Shown in pieces: positions 2,836 through 35,314 of a DNA stretch of 64,000 nucleotides. A model generated the notes under the pieces. It searched no databases. It was not told the DNA's origin and saw only the letters and a list, made by a program, of their open reading frames with translations. Source of the DNA: Olleya sp. Bg11-27 (GTDB lineage Bacteria > Bacteroidota > Bacteroidia > Flavobacteriales > Flavobacteriaceae); NCBI RefSeq assembly GCF_002831645.1, contig NZ_CP025117.1, positions 186,001-250,000 on the forward strand. The letters run 5' to 3'. The translations under genes and the position numbers were made by a program. Each line of letters begins with the position of its first letter. The first letter of the stretch is position 1.

Positions 2836-5658
2836 TTACTTCAGTTTTTTCTTAACCTCTACCTCATGGAATGCTTCAATAACATCACCGACATTAATGT
2901 CGTTATAGTTCTTGATTTGCATACCACAATCGTACCCCTTAGAAACTTCTTTAGCGTCGTCCTTGAATCGTTTTAACGACTCTAATACTCCTGTATAAGT
3001 TACTACACCATCTCTAATCAGACGGATTTGTGAGTTTCTGAATATCTTACCATTCATAACCATACAACCTGCAATAGTACCTACTTTAGACACTTTAAAC
3101 ATTTCTCTAATTTCTGCTGTACCTGTAATCTCTTCTTTCAACTCAGGAGATAACATCCCTTCCATAGCATCTTTAAGATCATTAATAGCATCATAAATAA
3201 TAGAATATGTTCTTATATCAACTTCTTCTCTATCTGCAATTGTACGCGCATTTCCAACAGGACGCACATTAAATCCAATGATTATTGCATCTGAAGCAGT
3301 TGCTAATAATACATCACTTTCTGTAATAGCTCCTACACCTTTATGAAGAATGTTAACCTGAATTTCTTCAGTAGATAACTTTTGGAATGAATCTGTTAAT
3401 GCTTCAACAGAACCATCCACATCTCCTTTAAGGATAATATTTAATTCTTTAAACGTTCCTAAAGCAATACGACGACCAATTTCAGCCAACGTTAATGTTT
3501 TAGTTGTTCTTACATCTTGTTCACGTTGTAATTGTGTACGCTTAGTAGCAATTTGCTTAGCTTCACGCTCATCAGCAAAGACATTAAACTTATCACCTGC
3601 CTGAGGTGCTCCGTCTAAACCTAATACAGATACTGGTGTTGATGGTCCAGCTTCCTGAACATCATGACCACGCTCATCTTGCATTGCTTTAACTTTACCA
3701 CTATTCTTACCTGCAAGAACATAATCTCCAACACGTAATGTACCCGCTTGTACTAATACTGTAGATACGTAACCTCTACCTTTATCTAAAAAGGCTTCTA
3801 CTACTGTTCCTATTGCTGGTTTATTAGGATTAGCTTTAAGCTCTAATAATTCTGCTTCAAGCAATACCTTTTCTAATAATTCTTTAACACCTGTACCTAC
3901 TTTTGCAGAAATATCATGAGACTGGATTTTTCCACCCCAATCTTCTACTAGTAAATTCATTTGTGCTAAACCTTCTTTAATCTTTTCTGGATTAGCGTGT
4001 GGTTTATCAATCTTGTTTATTGCAAACACTATTGGTACACCTGCTGCTTGTGCATGCGATATAGCTTCTTTAGTTTGAGGCATAATATCATCATCCGCTG
4101 CTGCTACAATAATAGCTATATCTGTTACTTGAGCACCACGTGCACGCATCGCTGTAAAGGCCTCGTGACCTGGTGTATCTAAAAATGCTATTTTTTGTCC
4201 ATTATCTAGCTCTACTCCATAAGCACCAATATGCTGTGTGATCCCTCCAGATTCTCCTGCAATAACATTTTCTTTACGTATGTAATCTAATAAAGATGTT
4301 TTACCATGATCAACGTGTCCCATTACTGTAACAATTGGAGCACGAGGTTTTAAATCTTCTGGTTTATCAATAACATCTTCAATCGACACTTCGATATCAG
4401 CTGTTACAAATTCTGTTTTATATCCAAATTCTTCTGCAACAATAGCAATAGTCTCAGCATCTAAACGCTGATTCATTGTTACCATCATACCTAAAGACAT
4501 ACAAGCAGAGATAATTTGTGTTACCGGAACATCCATCATCGTTGCTATTTCATTTGCCGTAACAAATTCAGTAACCTTAAGAATCTTACTTTCTGCAGCT
4601 TCTATTTGTTGATCAATTTCCGATTGCTCTCTATGTTGATCTCTTTTCTCTCTTCTATATTTAGCACCTTTACCTTTAGAAGATTTACCCTGTAATTTCT
4701 CTAAAGTTTCACGTACTTGTCTTTGTACTTCTTCTTCACTAGGCTCAGCTTTAACAACTGGTGTCGCTTTACGCCCACCTGGTCTTTTTCCTTTAAACCT
4801 ATCATTACCTCTTGAAGGACCAGAATTAGATCTGTTATTATCTCCAGGTTTAGAAATACGACGACGCTTTCTTTTGTTAGCGTTGTCATCCTTTTTAGGA
4901 TCTTCTTTCTTCTTCTTAGGTTTATTAAATTGAGATAAATCAATTTTTTCACCAGCTATTTTCGGACCAGAAAGTTTTGTGTATTTTGTCTTAAGCGTTT
5001 CTTCAACCGGTTCTTGAGGGGCAGCATCTTCTTTAGCAACTTCCTTTGCAGGAACAGCTTTAGTTTCTGTCTTAGCCTCCACTTTAATTTCGGTTTTTGC
5101 TTTCGGAGCATCGGTAGCTTTAGCACCTACTTTAGCCTTCTCTTCAGTTTTAGCTTTCGCTTCTACTTTGACTTCGACTTTAGGTGTTTCTTTTTCTACA
5201 GATACTTTTTCTGCTTTAACAACTTCTTTCTTAGACTCAGGAGTTTCTTCCACTTTCTTAGCAACTTTTTTACCAGTACCTAAATCTATCTTACCGACAG
5301 TTTTAGGACCAGAAAGCGCTTTAGAAGCTTTAATAACTTCTTCATCTTTTTTAAGCTGTGCTGCCTTGGCTGCCTTCGCAGCTTCTTCAGCTTTATGCTT
5401 AATCTCTAGTTCCTTTTCGCGTTTAACACGCAATACTTCTTTCTCCTTATTCTTTGCTTCATTAACCTCTTGTGATGCCATTTTCTTGTTAGCATCAGTT
5501 TGAAATTCATTTGAAAGAATACTGTAAGTTTCTTCTGAAATTTTGGTAGTCGGGCGCTTCTCAACCTCTACACCCTTAGAATCTAAAAATTCTACAGCGC
5601 GATCAAGAGAGATGTTAAGCTCACGTAATACCTTATTTAATCTTATTGTTTCAGCCAT
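2836..5658 (-). CDS. infB: Translation initiation factor IF-2
   Basis: This 940-residue GTPase delivers initiator fMet-tRNA to the 30S subunit and promotes subunit joining. It has an IF2_N domain at the start ([20 protein letters not shown]). A long low-complexity Lys/Glu/Ala region of about 250 residues and a basic RKRRRISK patch follow. A second IF2_N module comes next, then the G domain from about residue 440 with GHVDHGKT (G1), DTPGHEAF (G3) and NKID (G4), and then domains II-IV ending near [17 protein letters not shown]. It is the last gene of rimP-nusA-infB, 41 bp after nusA, and ends at the bidirectional terminator. The N-terminal linker is long but normal for Bacteroidota IF-2. Confidence 0.98.
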
Positions 5659-27668: not shown

Positions 27669-27976
27669 TGAAAACTTTAGGAGAAACACTCAAAGAAGCA
27701 AGAGATAGAATTAATTTAATTCTACGAAAAGTATCCGCAGAAGTTGATATTGATCAATCGCTTATAAGCAAGTTTGAGAAAAACGAACGAAAACCTACAA
27801 AAGAGCAATTGATAAGACTTGCTGATTTTTACAATCTTTCTCATAAAGATTTAATTATAAGTTGGTATTCAGATAAAATAGCGGAAGATTTGAAATATAC
27901 AGAATCAACTACAGAAATTTTAAAAGTGGCAGAAGAAAAAATTAACTATTACAAAACTCAAGATAATGGCAAATAA
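27668..27976 (+). CDS. XRE-family controller (C) protein of the restriction-modification system
   Basis: This 102-residue HTH protein starts MKTLGETLKEARDRINLILR, and the recognition helix region is IDQSLISKFEKNERKPTKEQ. The C-terminal 40 residues are helical and could dimerise. I chose the start at 27668 over an in-frame ATG at 27635, because the latter falls inside the promoter -7 element. It overlaps the methyltransferase by 11 bp. By analogy with C proteins of type II systems it should bind the half-sites at 27635-27668 and time methylase and nuclease expression. Confidence 0.85.
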   Translation: MKTLGETLKEARDRINLILRKVSAEVDIDQSLISKFEKNERKPTKEQLIRLADFYNLSHKDLIISWYSDKIAEDLKYTESTTEILKVAEEKINYYKTQDNGK

Positions 27977-29204
27977 GAAAATAAGAGTAGCAGAATTATT
28001 TGCTGGAGTTGGTGGATTTAGACTTGGACTTGAGAAAAGTGATTTTGAAATTGTGTGGAGCAACCAATGGGAACCTTCAACTAAAAAGCAACATGCTTCA
28101 GAGGTTTATGAAGCACGTTTTGGAAAAGAAAACCATTCAAACGAAGATATAAACCAAGTTGTAACAAGAGATGTTGAAGAAATACCTGATCATGATTTAT
28201 TGGTTGGAGGATTCCCTTGTCAAGATTATTCTGTTGCAACAACGTTACATAATTCTAAAGGATTAAAAGGAAAAAAAGGAGTCCTTTGGTGGTCAATTCA
28301 TAGCATTTTAGAGAATAAAAAGAATAAACCAAAATATCTGTTTTTAGAAAATGTTGATAGACTTTTAAAATCTCCCGCAAATCAAAGAGGACGTGATTTT
28401 GCTGTAATGCTTCAAAGTTTAAATGATTTAGGCTATGCTGTAGAATGGCGAGTTATTAATGCAGCTGAATACGGAATGCCACAAAGACGAAGAAGGGTAT
28501 TCTTTATTGGTTATCATAAGTCGACAGATATATACAAAAGACTTATAAAGTCTAGTAAAACAGATTGGTTAACAGAGGAAGGAACTATAGCGAAAGCTTT
28601 TCCTGTAGCAAAAAACATTAAAATTCAAGAAGTTGAATTAAAAGGGAATTTAGTTGAAATAACTAACGAGTTTAATAAAGACGGTAAATTATCCCCTTTT
28701 CATAATACAGGAATGTTAGTTAAAGGAATAGTCTATACTGCCAAGACTACACCTAATTATGATGGACCAAAAATAGTACTTGGAAACGTACTACAGAATG
28801 GAGAAGTTACTCCTGACTTTTTTATAGATGAAAAGGATAAACCCAAATGGGAATATTTAAAAGGAGCAAAGAAAGAAAAACGTAAAACTAAAGAAGGTTT
28901 TGAATATAATTATAGTGAAGGTGGGATGATTTATCCTGATTCACTAGATAACGCATCTAGAACTATTATTACAGGAGAAGGAGGAAAATCTCCCTCAAGA
29001 TTTAAACATGTAGTCTCAACAAGTAGAGGTTTAAGAAGATTAACACCTATTGAGTTAGAAAGACTAAATATGTTTCCTAAAAATCACACGAAATTGGATG
29101 GGATTACAGATGCAAAAAGAGCATTTTTTATGGGTAATGCCTTAGTTGTAGGAGTTATTGAAAGAATTGGAAAACAACTTTTTAAAAAAATCACAAATGG
29201 ATAA
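27966..29204 (+). CDS. DNA (cytosine-5-)-methyltransferase, type II
   Basis: This 412-residue enzyme has the C5-methylase motifs in order: AELFAGVGGFRLGLE (motif I, residues 9-23), GGFPCQDYS with catalytic Cys85 (motif IV), LENVDRLL (motif VI, about 127-134), QRRRRVFFIGY (motif VIII, 173-183) and a late RGLRRLTPIELERLNMFP with the FMGNALVVGV (motifs IX-X). The target-recognition region (about 200-330) gives no specificity by eye. It lies between the controller and endonuclease genes with overlapping ends at both junctions, a compact type II operon. The island position next to gene remnants suggests horizontal gain. Confidence 0.95.
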   Translation: MANKKIRVAELFAGVGGFRLGLEKSDFEIVWSNQWEPSTKKQHASEVYEARFGKENHSNEDINQVVTRDVEEIPDHDLLVGGFPCQDYSVATTLHNSKGLKGKKGVLWWSIHSILENKKNKPKYLFLENVDRLLKSPANQRGRDFAVMLQSLNDLGYAVEWRVINAAEYGMPQRRRRVFFIGYHKSTDIYKRLIKSSKTDWLTEEGTIAKAFPVAKNIKIQEVELKGNLVEITNEFNKDGKLSPFHNTGMLVKGIVYTAKTTPNYDGPKIVLGNVLQNGEVTPDFFIDEKDKPKWEYLKGAKKEKRKTKEGFEYNYSEGGMIYPDSLDNASRTIITGEGGKSPSRFKHVVSTSRGLRRLTPIELERLNMFPKNHTKLDGITDAKRAFFMGNALVVGVIERIGKQLFKKITNG

Positions 29205-30135
29205 AAGAAAGAATAGAGTTCAACCAATTAGACTATCTCCAAAATTCTTTCCTTTGGATATACATAAGTCAATGTTCATCAATGATTTAATGATTTCTAT
29301 TCCTCAATATTACGCCCAATCATGGGAAAAAACAGTTTTGGAGTCTCATAATCCAAATAATAAATCATGGCAAATTGATATAACTTATGAATCGCCAAGA
29401 GAATTAGGAAAAGTAAAAAATAAATTTACAGGAAATTTATCTTTGTTTTTTGCAACAGGCAGAAGCCAAACAAGTAGTTATAGATTGAAATGGGATAATG
29501 AATTTGCAATTCAATTAGCAAAAGATTACCCCAAAAGTTTTGTGAGATCCTTAGAGTTCCACATTGGAGACGAATATTACAAGGAACAAAGGTTCACAGA
29601 ATATGATATAGGAGGATTTAAAGAACAATTACAGGTAAAGATTGTTTGGAAAAATAACATTCCAGAAATCAATATTAAAGAATTTTTCAGAGTAAGAGAG
29701 GAATCTCAAGGTTTTCCGAAAGTTTTCAATGAACTTAGCTCATATTTAATAACTGACTATTTACTTAGTTCTGAAGATGAAATATTAAGAAGAATTCAGG
29801 TTAGTGATTGGAAATTAAGAAAAAACATTTCTAAAGAAGTAAATGAAAATAACATTTACATTTTACTAAATAGAGAACTAAAGCAAGTCTATTTTGGCGA
29901 AACCAAAAAATCTTTATCACAACGATATCCACAAACACAAAAACATCATTCTTTTGACGAATGGACTGAATACTGTATAATACAATTACCTCCAGAGACT
30001 TCTGAACACACCAGACTACTAGTTGAACGTATTTTAATTGCTGCGGGATCAAAACTTTTTCCCAACATTCTTTACATCGACAAACCTGTTCTGGACATAC
30101 AAAACGGCTTAATTCTTAAAAACAGAAAAAAATAA
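29197..30135 (+). CDS. GIY-YIG-family restriction endonuclease
   Basis: This protein of 312 residues begins 8 bp inside the methylase 3' end (ATGGATAA overlap). An N-terminal region of about 215 residues is unknown and may recognise DNA. Residues 219-290 read as a GIY-YIG nuclease: IYILLN (Tyr221), VYFGET (Tyr232), SLSQRY (Arg243), then HTRLLVERILIAA with the metal-binding Glu277 and Asn290. Few restriction enzymes use this fold; the Eco29kI/Cfr42I and Hpy188I groups are known. Pairing with a C5 methylase fits the Eco29kI side, but this protein is longer. Cleavage specificity is unknown. Confidence 0.85.
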   Translation: MDKRKNRVQPIRLSPKFFPLDIHKSMFINDLMISIPQYYAQSWEKTVLESHNPNNKSWQIDITYESPRELGKVKNKFTGNLSLFFATGRSQTSSYRLKWDNEFAIQLAKDYPKSFVRSLEFHIGDEYYKEQRFTEYDIGGFKEQLQVKIVWKNNIPEINIKEFFRVREESQGFPKVFNELSSYLITDYLLSSEDEILRRIQVSDWKLRKNISKEVNENNIYILLNRELKQVYFGETKKSLSQRYPQTQKHHSFDEWTEYCIIQLPPETSEHTRLLVERILIAAGSKLFPNILYIDKPVLDIQNGLILKNRKK

Positions 30136-30761: not shown

Positions 30762-31565
30762 TTATTTCTTACCCCTAAAATACTCCATACACTTAATTGC
30801 AGGATTTGTTTTTCGGTTTTTAAAACTATGCGCAAAACTGCTTACTATTAAAATAATAGCAGCAACTAGCGCTGCATAAGCAACAGTACTATTAGCATCG
30901 TTATTGGCTACATAAATAGCAATTAAAGCCCACGCGCCTACAAGTGCAAACTCGCGCATGTTTCGTTTCCAGGTCACTGTTATATTTATTACAGTAGCTA
31001 TTACTATTAATAAAACGGTCCAAAATGTAGGAGACAATCCAAAACCGTCCCAATTATATTTTACTAAAACAGCAGACACGTTAGCAATACTAGCTACGGT
31101 AATCCAACCACTATAAATTACAAAAGGCCACCATAAAAATACAATTACAGAAATTGGAGCATCAAATAGTTCCATTTTATTTTTAAGCACTATTTGTAAT
31201 AACGAGAGTAGTATAATAAAGATAAATATTGAGGATAGTAAGGTGTAACCGTAAATCCAAGTGACAATCCAAGCACAATTAGCAATACAGGACACTAAAA
31301 ACCACCAACCTGTTATTAAAATAAAAGCGTCGTCTCTAACCTTTACAAACAAACTACGTCCTTGATAGACTATAAACCCAGTTAAAAACAGATAGATTAA
31401 TCCCCATATTGAAAACGCATAACCTGCTGGCGTAAATAATGTATTATAGTCTTTAGAGATTTCGCCAATGGTTGTGTTATTTAATAAACCTGTGTTAGAT
31501 AAATAGTTCATTACAATTACACAAACAAATGCAACTCCGTTAATTATTTGTAGTCGTTTTTTCAT
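30762..31565 (-). CDS. TspO/MBR-family membrane protein
   Basis: This membrane protein of 267 residues has about eight hydrophobic helices and is rich in Trp. The family motif region is visible in TPAGYAFSIWGLIYLFLTGF near residues 45-65, and a later FLWWPFVIYSGWITVASIAN matches the Trp-rich helices. It is the longer bacterial branch of the tryptophan-rich sensory protein family, which binds tetrapyrroles or related small molecules. It is monocistronic. The substrate cannot be inferred from the neighbours. Confidence 0.85.
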   Translation of the reverse strand: MKKRLQIINGVAFVCVIVMNYLSNTGLLNNTTIGEISKDYNTLFTPAGYAFSIWGLIYLFLTGFIVYQGRSLFVKVRDDAFILITGWWFLVSCIANCAWIVTWIYGYTLLSSIFIFIILLSLLQIVLKNKMELFDAPISVIVFLWWPFVIYSGWITVASIANVSAVLVKYNWDGFGLSPTFWTVLLIVIATVINITVTWKRNMREFALVGAWALIAIYVANNDANSTVAYAALVAAIILIVSSFAHSFKNRKTNPAIKCMEYFRGKK

Positions 31566-31646: not shown

Positions 31647-31766
31647 ACACCGCTAAAGTACCAAAAGGAACAACTATAACCTCAACAGTATTTGTGCGCA
31701 TTTTATTGGCACATAAAATAGGTGTGATGGGACTATTACAGGTTATGCTGTAGGATGCTTTTAAGG
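31647..31766. repeat. Decayed copy of the inverted-end repeat unit
   Basis: ACACCGCTAAAGTACC at 31647 and GGAACAACTATAACCTCAAC after it follow the left end of the neighbouring array units, but the GC palindrome is destroyed. Spacing to the first intact unit is 120 bp instead of 174. It looks like an old outer member of the array. Nothing else is visible between 31566 and 31646. Confidence 0.6.
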
Positions 31767-32430
31767 ACACCCCTAAAGTCCCCTCTAGGGGACAACCATT
31801 ACATCAAAAGTTATAGCGCTAATATAATTGGGAGACATAAAATATATAACGAAGTTTAACACGTATCACTCCGGCAGAATGTCCCCTTGAGGGGACCGCA
31901 GGGGTGTTCACACTCTGCTATCTCAGGCCCCTCTTTAAGGACACCCCTAAAGTCCCCTCTAGGGGACAACCACCACATCAATAGTTTTGGTGCTAATATA
32001 ATTGGTAGACATAAAATGTATAACGACGTTTAGCACGCATCCCTCCGGCAGAATGCCCCCTAGAGGGGACCGCAGGGGTGTTTTACTCAGGTATGTCAGG
32101 AACGCTATTTAAGGACACCCCTAAAGTCTCCTCTAGGGGACAACCATCAAATCAATAGTTTTGGTGCTAATATAATTGGTAGACATAAAATGTATAACGA
32201 AGTTTAGAACGCATCCCTCCGGCAGAATGTCCCCTTGAGGGGACCGCAGGGATGTTTTACTCAGGTATGTAAGGAACGCTATTTAAGGACACCCCTAAAG
32301 TCCCCTCTAGGGGACAACCATCGAATCAACAGTTTTGGTGCTACTTTAGTTTGATAAGTATAAAGTTTATGAAGAAGCCTAACACGCAACACTCCGCAAC
32401 AATGTCCCCTTGAGGGGACCGCAGGGGTGT
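31767..32430. repeat. Array of four inverted-end repeat units (left of the DUF559 gene)
   Basis: Units are 31767-31907, 31941-32081, 32115-32255 and 32289-32430. Starts are exactly 174 bp apart, and each unit is 141-142 bp long with a 33-bp spacer. Each begins ACACCCCTAAAG followed by a GTCCCC-TCTA-GGGGAC hairpin. Each ends with a GTCCCC-TTGA-GGGGAC-type hairpin, CGC and AGGGGTGT. The two ends are therefore long imperfect inverted repeats that themselves contain palindromes. The interior (about 85 bp) is AT-rich with AGTTTTGGTGCTAATATAAT. No coding frame is evident. Confidence 0.92.
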
Positions 32431-32461
32431 TCACCCAGCTTTAGTCAGGGCTGATTTTCAG

Positions 32462-32827
32462 TCACGCACTCAACTCCCTAACTTTTTCTTCAATAACCAA
32501 CAACACACTAAACATGTTTTTCTTTACTTCTTCATTAGTAAACCTTAAAAAAGTGACACCATACGCCTCTAATTCGCCTTGTCTTTTAGCATCGTACAAT
32601 ACTTTATGATCATGACTAGAGCCATCGATCTCGATAACTAAACCAATTTCGTGACAATAAAAATCTGTTATATAATTCAACATCGGTACCTGTCTATGAA
32701 ACTGAACACCATAAGCGCGTTGTTTTATATTTTGCCAAAGTAAGACTTCGGTTAATGTGCTATTTTTTCGTAATTGTCTTGCAAACAATTTTAAGTCTGA
32801 ACGATATGGGATAATCTTATTTCTCAT
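32462..32827 (-). CDS. DUF559 endonuclease-like protein (Vsr-related fold) inside the repeat array
   Basis: This protein of 121 residues has the family layout: KLFARQLRKNSTLTEVLLWQ (Glu27), FHRQVPMLNYITDFYC (Asp55) and LVIEIDGSSHD (Glu66, Asp68, His72). YGVTFLRFTNEEVKKN comes near the end. These residues match a PD-(D/E)XK/Vsr-type nuclease core. Four repeat units lie on its left and two on its right, only 31 bp and 109 bp away. DUF559 proteins are widespread in Bacteroidota, and their role is not established. A role in spreading or processing the flanking hairpin repeats is a hypothesis from this arrangement. Confidence 0.88.
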   Translation of the reverse strand: MRNKIIPYRSDLKLFARQLRKNSTLTEVLLWQNIKQRAYGVQFHRQVPMLNYITDFYCHEIGLVIEIDGSSHDHKVLYDAKRQGELEAYGVTFLRFTNEEVKKNMFSVLLVIEEKVRELSA

Positions 32828-32936
32828 TGTGTAGAATACTTAAAGTAATTATGGGCTCCGGACATACTTTTGAAGCTTATTTAACTATGAACTAACGAGT
32901 TAAATATATAACATTATTTGGAGATGTGTTTTACGG

Positions 32937-33250
32937 ACACCCCTAAAGTCCCCTCGAGGGGACAACCATCGAATCAACAGTTTTGACGCTAGTTAAATTG
33001 GTAAACATAAAATACAGGGTAACTCTTAACACGCAACACTCCGCAACAATGTCCCCTCGAGGGGACCGCAGGGGTGTTCACCCAGCTATGTCAGGAACGC
33101 TATTTAAGGACACCCCTAAAGTCCCCTCGAGGGGACAACCATTACCTCAACAGTTTTGACGCTAGTTAAATTGGTGAACATAAAATACAGGGTAACTCTT
33201 AACACGCAACCCTCCGGCAGAATGTCCCCTCGAGAGGACCGCAGGGGTGT
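32937..33250. repeat. Array of two inverted-end repeat units (right of the DUF559 gene)
   Basis: Units are 32937-33077 and 33110-33250 (141 bp each, starts 173 bp apart). The left-end hairpin is a perfect GTCCCCTCGAGGGGAC in both. The interior differs from units 1-3 of the left array (AGTTTTGACGCTAGTTAAAT, CAGGGTAACTCTTAACACGC). The unit at 32289 next to the gene shares CATCGAATCAACAGTTTTG and ACACTCCGCAACAATGTCCC with the unit at 32937. Between 32828 and 32936 I see nothing else. Confidence 0.92.
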
Positions 33251-33352: not shown

Positions 33353-35314
33353 TTAACGACGTTTCTTTTTAGACTTAAATTGAGCCTTATCTTTTCGTTG
33401 ATTAAAAGGAACCGCATCATTAAACGTGTTTTTAGCATCTCCTTTAGGTGCGTTTTTACGCCATTTTTCCGCTTTCTCTGGTAGTAACACTTTTAGTAAA
33501 TCTTGACGCCCTAATTTGTTTAGGGTCTTTTTGATCCACGCTTTATTTTCATCTTTATACCAGAAGAAAAAACGGTGTTGCTCGTCTTTCTCTTTACGCG
33601 TAATTGGTGTATTTACTTTTTTAAGTGTGTATGGATGGTAACCACTGTAATAAATTACGGTAGCAACAGTCATAGGCGTCGGTGTAAACCCTTGCACTTG
33701 CTCTAACTGAAATCCTAAATCCTTAGTTTCGGCAGCTAAGTTTGCCATATCTTCTACCTCACACGCTGGGTGATTAGATATAAAATACGGAATCAACTGT
33801 AGTTTTAAACCTTTAGCGATATTAATCTTATCAAAACGCTCTTTAAACTTATGAAAGTATTTAAACGATGGTTTACGCATCAGTTTTAATACAGGATCAC
33901 TAGTATGCTCTGGCGCCACTTTAAGTCGACCAGAAACGTGCTTAGTCATCACCTCTTCCGTATAAGCATCAAGCTCTTTAGGATCGGCATTTTTATTAAA
34001 TTCTGGCACCAACATATCGTGTCGTATTCCAGAACCTATAAATGATTTTTTTACTTTTGGATGCTTATCTACCGCTTGATACAAATCCGTTAACGGTTTA
34101 TGTGACGTATCTAAATTACTACATATTACTGGCGAAATACAACTAGGTGCCACACACTTGTCGCAAATAGACTGTACTTTACCCTTCATTTGATACATAT
34201 TAGCACTTGGTCCTCCAATATCACTTAAATACCCTTTAAAATCAGGCATATTAGCAACGGTATCTACTTCTTTTAAAATAGATTCCTGACTACGGGATGC
34301 AATAAATTTTCCTTGGTGTGCTGATATGGTACAAAAGCTACAACCACCAAAACATCCTCTGTGAATGTTGATTGAAAACTTAATCATTTCAAACGCAGGA
34401 ATTGGTCCACGCTTATTATATTTTGGATGTGGTAATCTTGTGTATGGCAAATCAAAAGACGCATCAATCTCCTTTTCCGTCATGGTTGGATAAGGTGGAT
34501 TAATCATTAAGGTCTTCTCTCCTACTTTCTGAAAAATTCGTCTAGCAGCCAATTTATTGGACTCTTGCTCTATAACTTTAAAGTTAGAAGCATACTGTTT
34601 TTTATCACTTAAACATACTTCATGTGATGAGATCTCGATATCTTCCCAATTTGCATTTTTAGGAATACTGTCTCCTTTATCTAAAAGAACTGCAGTTTGT
34701 AATACTGTATTAATACTATTAAAAGGCACCCCTTTTTCAAGTAAACGCACCACTTCACGTAAGGGTTGTTCTCCCATACCGTAAACCAACATGTCTGCTT
34801 TTGAAGTTTCTAAAATAGAAGGCATTAATTGATCACTCCAATAATCGTAATGCGTTACACGACGCAAAGACGCTTCAATACCACCTATTAAAACAGGTGT
34901 ATCTGGCCACTTATCTTTTAAAATTTTAGAATATACTGATGTTGCGTAATCTGGTCTAAACCCAATATCTCCATTTGGAGTATACGCATCTTTATCACGT
35001 TTCTTTTTATTAGCGTTATAATTACTAATCATTGGATCCATACAACCACCTGTAACACCAAAAAATAATTTAGGCTTCCCCATTTTAACAAAATCCTGAA
35101 GATTATCGTTAACATTTGGTTGCGGAACAATGGCTACACGTAAGCCAAAACTTTCTAACATGCGCCCAATTACCGCTGGACCAAACGTTGGATGATCGAC
35201 ATAAGCATCCCCACTAAAAAGGATAACATCTAGTGCTTCCCATCCGCGTATTTTCACCTCTTTGTTTGTGGTAGGTAACCAATCTGAAAGTTTTAATTCT
35301 TGCATAGTCTGCAA
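33353..35314 (-). CDS. YgiQ-family radical SAM protein
   Basis: This protein of 653 residues has an N-terminal region that is YgiQ-specific (LPTTNKEVKIRGWEALDVIL, then FGVTGGCMDPMISNYNANKK). The radical SAM cluster motif is RGCFGGCSFC, with Cys321, Cys325 and Cys328. It continues with ISAHQGKFIASRSQESI, GHPACEVEDM-like sequence (ISNHPACEVEDMA) and QVQGFTPTPMTVATVIYYSG. The C terminus is very basic. The reaction of YgiQ proteins is not settled. It appears as a single gene between the repeat array and the starch locus, and the start could also be the second Met (MQELKL). Confidence 0.93.
   Translation of the reverse strand: MQTMQELKLSDWLPTTNKEVKIRGWEALDVILFSGDAYVDHPTFGPAVIGRMLESFGLRVAIVPQPNVNDNLQDFVKMGKPKLFFGVTGGCMDPMISNYNANKKKRDKDAYTPNGDIGFRPDYATSVYSKILKDKWPDTPVLIGGIEASLRRVTHYDYWSDQLMPSILETSKADMLVYGMGEQPLREVVRLLEKGVPFNSINTVLQTAVLLDKGDSIPKNANWEDIEISSHEVCLSDKKQYASNFKVIEQESNKLAARRIFQKVGEKTLMINPPYPTMTEKEIDASFDLPYTRLPHPKYNKRGPIPAFEMIKFSINIHRGCFGGCSFCTISAHQGKFIASRSQESILKEVDTVANMPDFKGYLSDIGGPSANMYQMKGKVQSICDKCVAPSCISPVICSNLDTSHKPLTDLYQAVDKHPKVKKSFIGSGIRHDMLVPEFNKNADPKELDAYTEEVMTKHVSGRLKVAPEHTSDPVLKLMRKPSFKYFHKFKERFDKINIAKGLKLQLIPYFISNHPACEVEDMANLAAETKDLGFQLEQVQGFTPTPMTVATVIYYSGYHPYTLKKVNTPITRKEKDEQHRFFFWYKDENKAWIKKTLNKLGRQDLLKVLLPEKAEKWRKNAPKGDAKNTFNDAVPFNQRKDKAQFKSKKKRR

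Follow-up and report, generated by a model that had tools for sequence, protein, structure and literature searches.

The closest described counterpart of the locus analysed here is the REPtron, in which a RAYT (TnpA-REP) gene is associated with REP, BIME and REPIN repeats and, in the portions of the two reports that describe it, the gene is mostly stationary (PMC8266576, PMC6006769). A second counterpart is the EDxHD/Vsr-like homing endonucleases such as I-Bth0305I, and in an excerpt of one report a DUF559 gene is assigned to the EDxHD homing family (PMC9403480). A third comprises the palindromic elements of Rickettsia together with intragenic CGTC/GTAG repeats, palindromes that are open in frame inside proteins; CGTC repeats apparently have no dedicated transposase, according to an excerpt of the relevant report (PMC3733652). 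MITEs, finally, are short non-coding units with inverted ends that are present in some relatives and absent from others. Segments carrying transposase or DUF559 genes are named as recombination hot spots in Legionella in part of a further report (PMC12308824), and no report of an association between DUF559 genes and palindromes was found in the open-licence PubMed Central literature, a scope that does not include preprints.

The locus lies in a 64,000-nt stretch of the Olleya sp. Bg11-27 genome (hereafter the window). Its nuclease gene (32462..32827, minus strand) is a standalone DUF559 gene of 121 aa, assigned from alignments, a structural model and a match to PF04480 (E 2.7e-31; 108.1 bits against a cut-off of 20.6). 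The conserved positions E27, D55, E66, D68 and H72 are all there in the alignments. An AlphaFold2 model of the protein (pLDDT 89.4) has as its best Foldseek match 3hrl, an endonuclease-like protein of Neisseria that is matched by sequence as well (E 1.7e-15), followed by PvuRts1I and then by the homing endonuclease I-Bth0305I (3r3p_B; prob 1.00, TMq 0.56, E 3.7e-3), with a weaker match to Vsr (prob 0.90, E 0.22). As modelled, the fold and active site are related to those of the EDxHD homing endonucleases. A Pfam scan of the gene returned DUF559 and MTES_1575 only, and no HUH motif was seen by eye.

The gene sits inside an array of six plus-strand units, each of which runs from tag to hairpin, through filler, to an inverted hairpin and tag, with the outer tags ACACCCCT and AGGGGTGT. 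Units 1 (31767..31907), 2 (31941..32081), 3 (32115..32255; right tag AGGGATGT) and 4 (32289..32430, adjoining the gene) lie on the left, and units 5 (32937..33077, adjoining the gene) and 6 (33110..33250) on the right. All are 141 bp long except unit 4, at 142 bp, and their starts are spaced by 174, 174, 174, 648 (spanning the gene) and 173 bp; the Tandem Repeats Finder scores for the array, 962 and 589, are far above chance. The initial annotation, made from the sequence before this analysis, had given the same units, starts and 174/173-bp periods around the gene. It had also placed a GTCCCC-n4-GGGGAC hairpin next to each unit end, which holds as a general statement, with departures in unit 2 (TGCCCCCT), unit 3 (AGGGATGT and GTCTCC) and unit 6 (GAGAGGAC). 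When unit 5 is folded as single-stranded DNA, its two hairpins have energies of -5.7 and -5.4 kcal/mol, with z-scores of -2.3 and -0.8. The decayed seventh unit that it reported (family D4; 31647..31740 on the plus strand, the right limit being approximate) is real, with a recognizable left end, ACACCGCTAAAGTACC, and an eroded right half, and it was found too in the congeners G003 (by eye) and G005 (by BLAST). C/G-run palindromes common to both flanks lie within 200 bp of the DUF559 gene.

The array is bounded by two minus-strand genes that serve as syntenic anchors. A radical SAM gene (33353..35314), presumably of the ygiQ type, is the same neighbour in G003, G005, G101 and G002, and a membrane protein gene on the opposite side (30762..31565), which we take to be TspO/MBR-like, is conserved in G003 and G005. 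Vsr endonucleases cut T:G mismatches, and their genes are linked to that of a cytosine methyltransferase; in the window a C5 cytosine methyltransferase gene (PF00145) at 27966-29204 is 3.3 kb from the DUF559 gene and not adjacent to it. It is overlapped by an open reading frame at 29158-30135 that has no Pfam hit and looks GIY-YIG-like by eye, and the two (27966-30135) likely form a restriction-modification pair. A defence system was considered for the locus and set aside, PADLOC having returned weak partial hits only.

So far as the available portions of the REPtron reports go, the organization resembles that of a REPtron: one small nuclease gene lies between its palindromic repeats, the repeats are paired in inverted orientation across a linker of variable length and are often arranged in tandem, solo copies occur elsewhere, and the gene is mostly stationary. 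Inverted pairs in tandem are present in the window, with the tag ACACCCCT/AGGGGTGT where REPtrons have GTAG. The enzyme, however, is a DUF559 protein of the PD-(D/E)XK fold, and the lack, by eye, of an HUH motif sets the locus apart from REPtrons, whose nuclease is an HUH enzyme with a catalytic tyrosine; in other DUF559 members, moreover, the gene itself moves and enters reading frames. The repeats set it apart from EDxHD homing endonucleases. DUF559 elements share with these a related fold, insertion into conserved genes and empty alleles in relatives, but they carry palindromes at both ends, occupy several unrelated host genes, and have gene-free solo repeats and tandem arrays. No nameable known kind joins a REPtron-like organization with an EDxHD-like enzyme. 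Unlike MITEs, the units have ends that are themselves hairpins, no target-site duplication was found, and no DDE transposase is implicated. The sequences also differ from those of Rickettsia and CGTC repeats, and the window units have no CGTC tag. A role of DUF559 in CGTC repeats was considered and dropped: CGTCATTCCC, which we take to be the CGTC-type repeat motif, was absent from 3.3 kb around a Neisseria DUF559 gene, a region with one CGTCAT.

Evidence on the history of the locus came from relatives of the window genome (G000), which is a single contig of 4.31 Mb with two DUF559 genes. Two congeners have the gene and array beside ygiQ: in G003 the gene has 2 units on either side, and in G005 the order is 4 units, gene, 2 units. 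In G101, from another genus, the gene next to ygiQ is surrounded by units of ~150 bp and ~82 bp (by eye), and its DUF559 domain is 89% identical to that of the window. In a tree of 16 units from three genomes, with 7 of 13 inner branches open, window units 4, 5 and 6 fall together with units 2 and 4 of G003 (support 88/86); window units 1-3 fall with units 1 and 3 of that genome (support 95/92). Because the units group with G003 units across positions, the two unit lineages look older than the split between G000 and G003. The initial annotation had observed that units 4 and 5 share variants that units 1-3 lack, which is borne out by eye for ATCGAATCAACAG and AACACTCCGCAACAATG, and had proposed that the gene either inserted into one unit or spread together with a unit. 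Neither proposal, as worded, finds support at this locus: the gene is at the same site in G000, G003, G005 and G101, the unit lineages look as if they predate the split, and the sequence comparisons make the locus look vertically inherited, with a changing number of units and a few solo copies elsewhere. The differing unit number among species and the grouping of units across positions fit local amplification of the array. How gene and units first met is unreadable from the window locus.

Solo copies of the unit ends provide a second line of evidence. A search of G000 allowing up to 3 mismatches gave 21 places. Ten fall beyond the array, of which seven were inspected or aligned; the tally is two clear solo copies and one partial. 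Near 3350500 the palindrome is identical to the unit end at 27/27 bases, at 1303892 it matches over 26 nt (92%), and at 3347600 there is a partial match over 28 nt (89%). The copy near 3350500 is a unit of ~72 bp between two genes; the whole spacer is missing in G005 and G002, and G101 has different DNA there. At 1303892, G000 has an intact palindrome, G003 and G001 have a decayed one, and G005 has only a diverged stretch; G009, G008 and G002 have none at this site. Four solo hairpins viewed in G101 have the same or almost the same tag. Solo units are thus polymorphic among relatives, with empty sites. The initial annotation had suggested comparing strains for empty sites and copy-number changes; unit number does vary, and the solo site is empty in some relatives, but no module insertion polymorphism was seen for the window gene at its own locus in the relatives compared. 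Insertion polymorphism is found for a solo unit in the window family and for the module in other family members, so the suggestion that the nuclease module spreads holds for the latter and not for the window member. A second short repeat beside a solo unit (L025, ~4832-4889) recurs in G101, G007, G006 and G005 and belongs to another repeat family of the window's genus. In G005, two DUF559 genes ~1 kb apart (L061; G005:C1:3303507 and 3304489), each 37.5% identical to the window protein, are probably a tandem duplication.

These observations bear on the strongest alternative for the window itself, namely that its array is old, owes its persistence to tandem duplication beside a nuclease that has been domesticated, and is now immobile. 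The gene and array occupy the same place in two genera, there are only two clear solo copies, and palindrome hits in relatives are few, as this model would expect. With up to 2 mismatches, matches to the palindrome number 8 in G000, 5 in G003 and 5 in G005, all three with an intact gene; among seven congeners without an intact gene there are none in six and 1 in one, and the other 50 of the 60 genomes searched have 2 in all. Against immobility, however, the reading frame is intact in G000, G003, G005 and G101, and the conserved residues were confirmed in G000 and G101. In G002, where a frame change breaks the gene, only a short unit-end relic of the array remains, and the solo unit near 3350500 is missing from three relatives. 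We regard a purely immobile array as unlikely, while noting that it concerns the window only.

A partnership like that of REP/RAYT systems, in which a Vsr-like nuclease takes the role of the Y1 transposase, was put forward in the initial annotation by analogy and is supported well beyond the window. Sixty standalone DUF559 genes of the same order were examined with up to 8 kb per side, a selection that favours strong hits, using a strict palindrome definition (C- or G-run arm of at least 7, loop of at most 12) chosen after 40 of the 60 loci had been viewed. A palindrome lay within 200 bp in 42/60 loci, at a density of 3.63/kb, which fell to 1.01/kb at 200-400 bp and to 0.06-0.12/kb beyond 600 bp. 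For an independent set, the best 80 of 566 candidates were taken, with named loci and the definition fixed beforehand; removal of 3 duplicates of the first set and 20 genes in open frames of at least 240 codons left 57. Here 31/57 loci had a palindrome within 200 bp, at 2.46/kb compared with 0.04-0.06/kb beyond 1 kb. The proposed link between copies and DUF559 genes thus held in both sets. The independent set is mostly Bacteroidota, with palindromes also in Acinetobacter, Rhodopseudomonas, Microbulbifer, cyanobacteria and one Chloroflexota bacterium. No strict palindrome was found within 600 bp at 18/60 loci of the first set and 22/57 of the independent set, and several of the 18 show longer imperfect hairpins.

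Further comparisons concern both flanks and other nucleases. At least three 10-mers common to the left and right flank were found in 81 of 106 two-flank loci, the remaining 25 falling below that number, compared with 14% of permuted pairs and 60/382 control window pairs. Tandem arrays (period of at least 60) occur within 800 bp of the gene in 22 of 118 loci, the window counted, at 0.165/kb compared with 0.013/kb at distance. Genes for GxxExxY nucleases in relatives, by contrast, had a palindrome within 400 bp in 0/29 cases (30 were fetched, and L181 was cut short), and these nucleases were set aside as further members. The association is with DUF559 genes specifically, and it is broad. Phages were also considered and set aside, with 3 records. 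A C- or G-run lies within 14 nt of 88/158 of the nearest palindromes and 22/72 of the distant ones; since no orientation is preferred, a common tag-outward anatomy was dropped and is claimed for the window's family alone. Two further arrays were noted along the way: four copies of CCCCTCTTTAGGAAAGAGGGG spaced by ~192 bp (G199:C10:16603-17198), and a tandem-repeated segment of ~280 bp downstream of a Neisseria DUF559 gene (L407) with palindromes CTCTCTCCC/GGGAGAGAG and CCCTCCCCC/GGGGAGGG.

At the level of whole genomes, CCCCTC-N2-10-GAGGGG was counted in a 296-genome sample of the order, and genomes with a strong DUF559 hit (E <1e-15) were compared with those having none or a weak one. The comparison covers three large families, leaves out 96 other genomes and is uncorrected for relatedness; the palindrome of the window itself does not conform to this pattern, and G000 scores 0. 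Within these bounds, mean counts were 4.1 (35 genomes with strong DUF559) against 0.7 (38 genomes; p 6e-6) in the first family, 11.0 (41 genomes) against 4.7 (30 genomes; p 2e-4) in the second, and 5.8 (12 genomes) against 1.0 (44 genomes; p 5e-7) in the third. Several genomes without DUF559 have many palindromes, chiefly in family f5 (18 in G107, 17 in G117). Co-variation of nuclease and palindrome is weak overall (Mantel rho 0.11, p 0.004). Palindrome 7-mers in common rise from 0.06-0.07 at <55% protein identity to 0.18 at 55-70% and 0.39 at >70%, a rise that simple shared ancestry may explain in part. In ten within-genome paralogue pairs the palindromes mostly differ. These sequence comparisons lend weak general support to cognate specificity.

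Elsewhere in the family, movement of the nuclease module itself is seen. Where a DUF559 domain lies in an open frame of ~1000-1300 codons, it is mostly an insertion in an unrelated protein: MetH, LeuRS, IleRS, a RecB-like helicase, HsdR and a ligase-associated DEXH helicase (eight representatives were named by NCBIfam, three of them also by Pfam, and the others were grouped by BLASTP). Pfam scans of three interrupted proteins gave no intein model; for the remaining hosts the comparison was with NCBIfam at E up to 1e-10. A strict palindrome lies within 200 bp of the domain in 20 of 40 long-frame loci (L168 and L232 being one locus), 9 more have just a shorter C5/G5 or CCTCC/GGAGG hairpin, and the DFxC...ExDGxxH core is kept in 38/40. 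In five Pedobacter loci DUF559 is fused to the start of HisF, and none of these has a strict palindrome within 200 bp of the domain. Among frames of 250-410 codons, some (L223, L249, L258) probably represent standalone genes that happen to lie in an open frame. Fused DUF559 domains had been intended as a negative control (1/20; in the independent set, 0/20 long frames). This control was dropped because long frames are mostly in-frame insertions, and the two counts are not used as evidence since their distances were taken from frame ends. The LeuRS frame of L242 has, besides its DUF559 module, a second stretch, TPSPLERAGGEA, with the look of an in-frame solo palindrome.

Empty sites were found for two of these hosts within one genus. 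Of 26 genomes, two have an interrupted helicase gene (the query G161 and also G360) and 15 have flanks that abut; the other nine were not scorable. MetH is interrupted in 3 of the 24 genomes with a match, the query included (G211, the query, G367 and G373), with abutting flanks in 20 and a one-sided match in 1. G360 has an interrupted helicase and an empty MetH, and G367 and G373 have the opposite state. The modules, of ~425-500 bp, replace 12-76 bp of host DNA in variable linkers, and no target-site duplication is evident at the MetH and helicase insertions. G358 and G371 were scored as empty for the helicase, yet palindrome-like remnants are visible by eye at the same linker. In the MetH proteins of L161 and L252 the module is at two positions, each of which is empty in the other. 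In a tree of 151 DUF559 domains (105 columns, 49 of 148 inner branches open, bootstrap not settled), helicase-borne domains and the DEXH-helicase element lie among LeuRS-borne ones, and one LeuRS-borne element lies with IleRS- and MetH-borne ones, on starred branches in each case; LeuRS needs 5 changes, of which at least 4 are forced. The module has thus moved between unrelated genes.

Insertion into conserved genes raises the possibility of a strict homing endonuclease gene, whose product would cleave empty alleles at one long and unique target, with the palindromes as repair scars or hot spots. I-Bth0305I (3r3p, prob 1.00) is among the closest well-known folds, the family assignment in PMC9403480 points the same way as far as that excerpt goes, and insertion sites in conserved genes recur (MetH, LeuRS). 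A strict homing gene would not, however, be expected in the pattern just described, with one nuclease clade in unrelated genes and at several positions within one gene. Solo palindromes lie at unrelated places, no long common target is obvious by eye at the empty MetH and helicase sites, and homing alone leaves the tandem arrays unexplained. Strict homing is therefore improbable as an account of the family.

A further case comes from E. coli. The gene ycjD, between sapF and fabI, is a DUF559 gene, in K-12 likewise, and C/G-rich repeats lie downstream of it (by eye). One of these folds to a bulged hairpin (z -2.7) and another does so weakly (z -1.0), and no strict palindrome was found beside ycjD, the hairpins being imperfect. 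The repeat beside ycjD and fabI is, we assume, box C, first described near envM/fabI. As in the window, a DUF559 gene is beside a C/G-rich hairpin repeat found at many places in the genome; unlike the window, the hairpins are imperfect and on the downstream side only, and a 174-bp array is absent. The gene is found in 3365 of 5426 genomes, and the repeat occupies a median of 14 places per genome having any. In 60 records taken across the ranking, the median is 16 places for the 37 that carry a full-length copy and 3 for the other 23; full coverage is a proxy for the presence of ycjD (K-12 was checked directly), and lineage is uncorrected. In two E. coli strains without ycjD at this site, sapF is followed by another gene cluster, which encodes an MFS transporter, an outer membrane efflux protein and an RND pump. 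The records L399/L404 and L405/L406 show two alternative contents of one sapF-side locus.

Nucleases of the PD-(D/E)XK fold cut DNA but do not rejoin it. TnpA-REP both cleaves and rejoins REP strands, as described in the available parts of its reports (PMC8266576, PMC6006769), so that DUF559 could be a passenger, with RAYT/TnpA-REP or another transposase mobilizing the palindromes; the persistence of palindromes in some genomes without DUF559 is consistent with such a model. Yet DUF559 is the gene found repeatedly between palindromes, across phyla, and its presence tracks palindrome number, in E. coli by proxy. The in-frame inserts of 425-500 bp hold little beyond DUF559, with the catalytic core kept in 38/40 long frames. 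A passenger role is accordingly even less probable than strict homing. Least probable of all is that DUF559 is a Vsr-type mismatch repair nuclease beside which the palindromes are just fragile sites or ordinary hairpins such as terminators and mRNA ends: the Foldseek likeness to Vsr and the Caulobacter DUF559 protein VsrA, which causes SOS induction without the ScmA methyltransferase and is proposed, in the excerpt available, as a mismatch-repair enzyme (PMC12907096), speak for it, but terminators are not shared by both sides of a gene, do not form tandem arrays or solo copies, and do not enter reading frames with the gene, as these palindromes do.

The reading we favour, with reasonable though far from complete confidence, is that the window holds the resident copy of a REPtron-like mobile element, made of a DUF559 nuclease and its own palindromes, the units of which have been tandemly amplified. 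The nuclease of such an element, of the PD-(D/E)XK fold and near the Vsr and EDxHD homing nucleases, would recognize and bind its cognate hairpin repeat and cut or nick DNA. Cutting would drive copying, with host repair and recombination completing the transfer of the repeat, or of repeat-gene-repeat, to new places. In one clade, palindrome and gene are open in a single frame, so that the module survives in the linkers of housekeeping proteins. In the window, the module would have lain next to ygiQ since before the two genera split, unequal recombination would probably have expanded its hairpin pairs into the tandem array, and a few solo copies would have gone elsewhere in the genome.

The novelty of this locus rests on the family-wide reading and not on the window alone. 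That broader proposal, for which we see the case as finely balanced and a shade short of even, is that DUF559 genes with cognate palindromes are a major undescribed class of mobile element, extending from Bacteroidota to Proteobacteria, Cyanobacteria and Chloroflexota, that spreads without a transposase via structure-directed hairpin cutting and host repair. Such a class would explain orphan palindromes, for example those beside ycjD, and in-frame entry into aminoacyl-tRNA synthetases, MetH and DNA-repair helicases. If true, it would give a role to a small protein family of as yet unassigned function that is found across bacteria, including as ycjD in E. coli K-12, and a mobilizer to orphan palindromic repeats. 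It also suggests that palindromes of one family may be partnered by an enzyme from an unrelated class, and entry in frame into LeuRS, IleRS and MetH would be a natural experiment on how proteins tolerate inserted domains.
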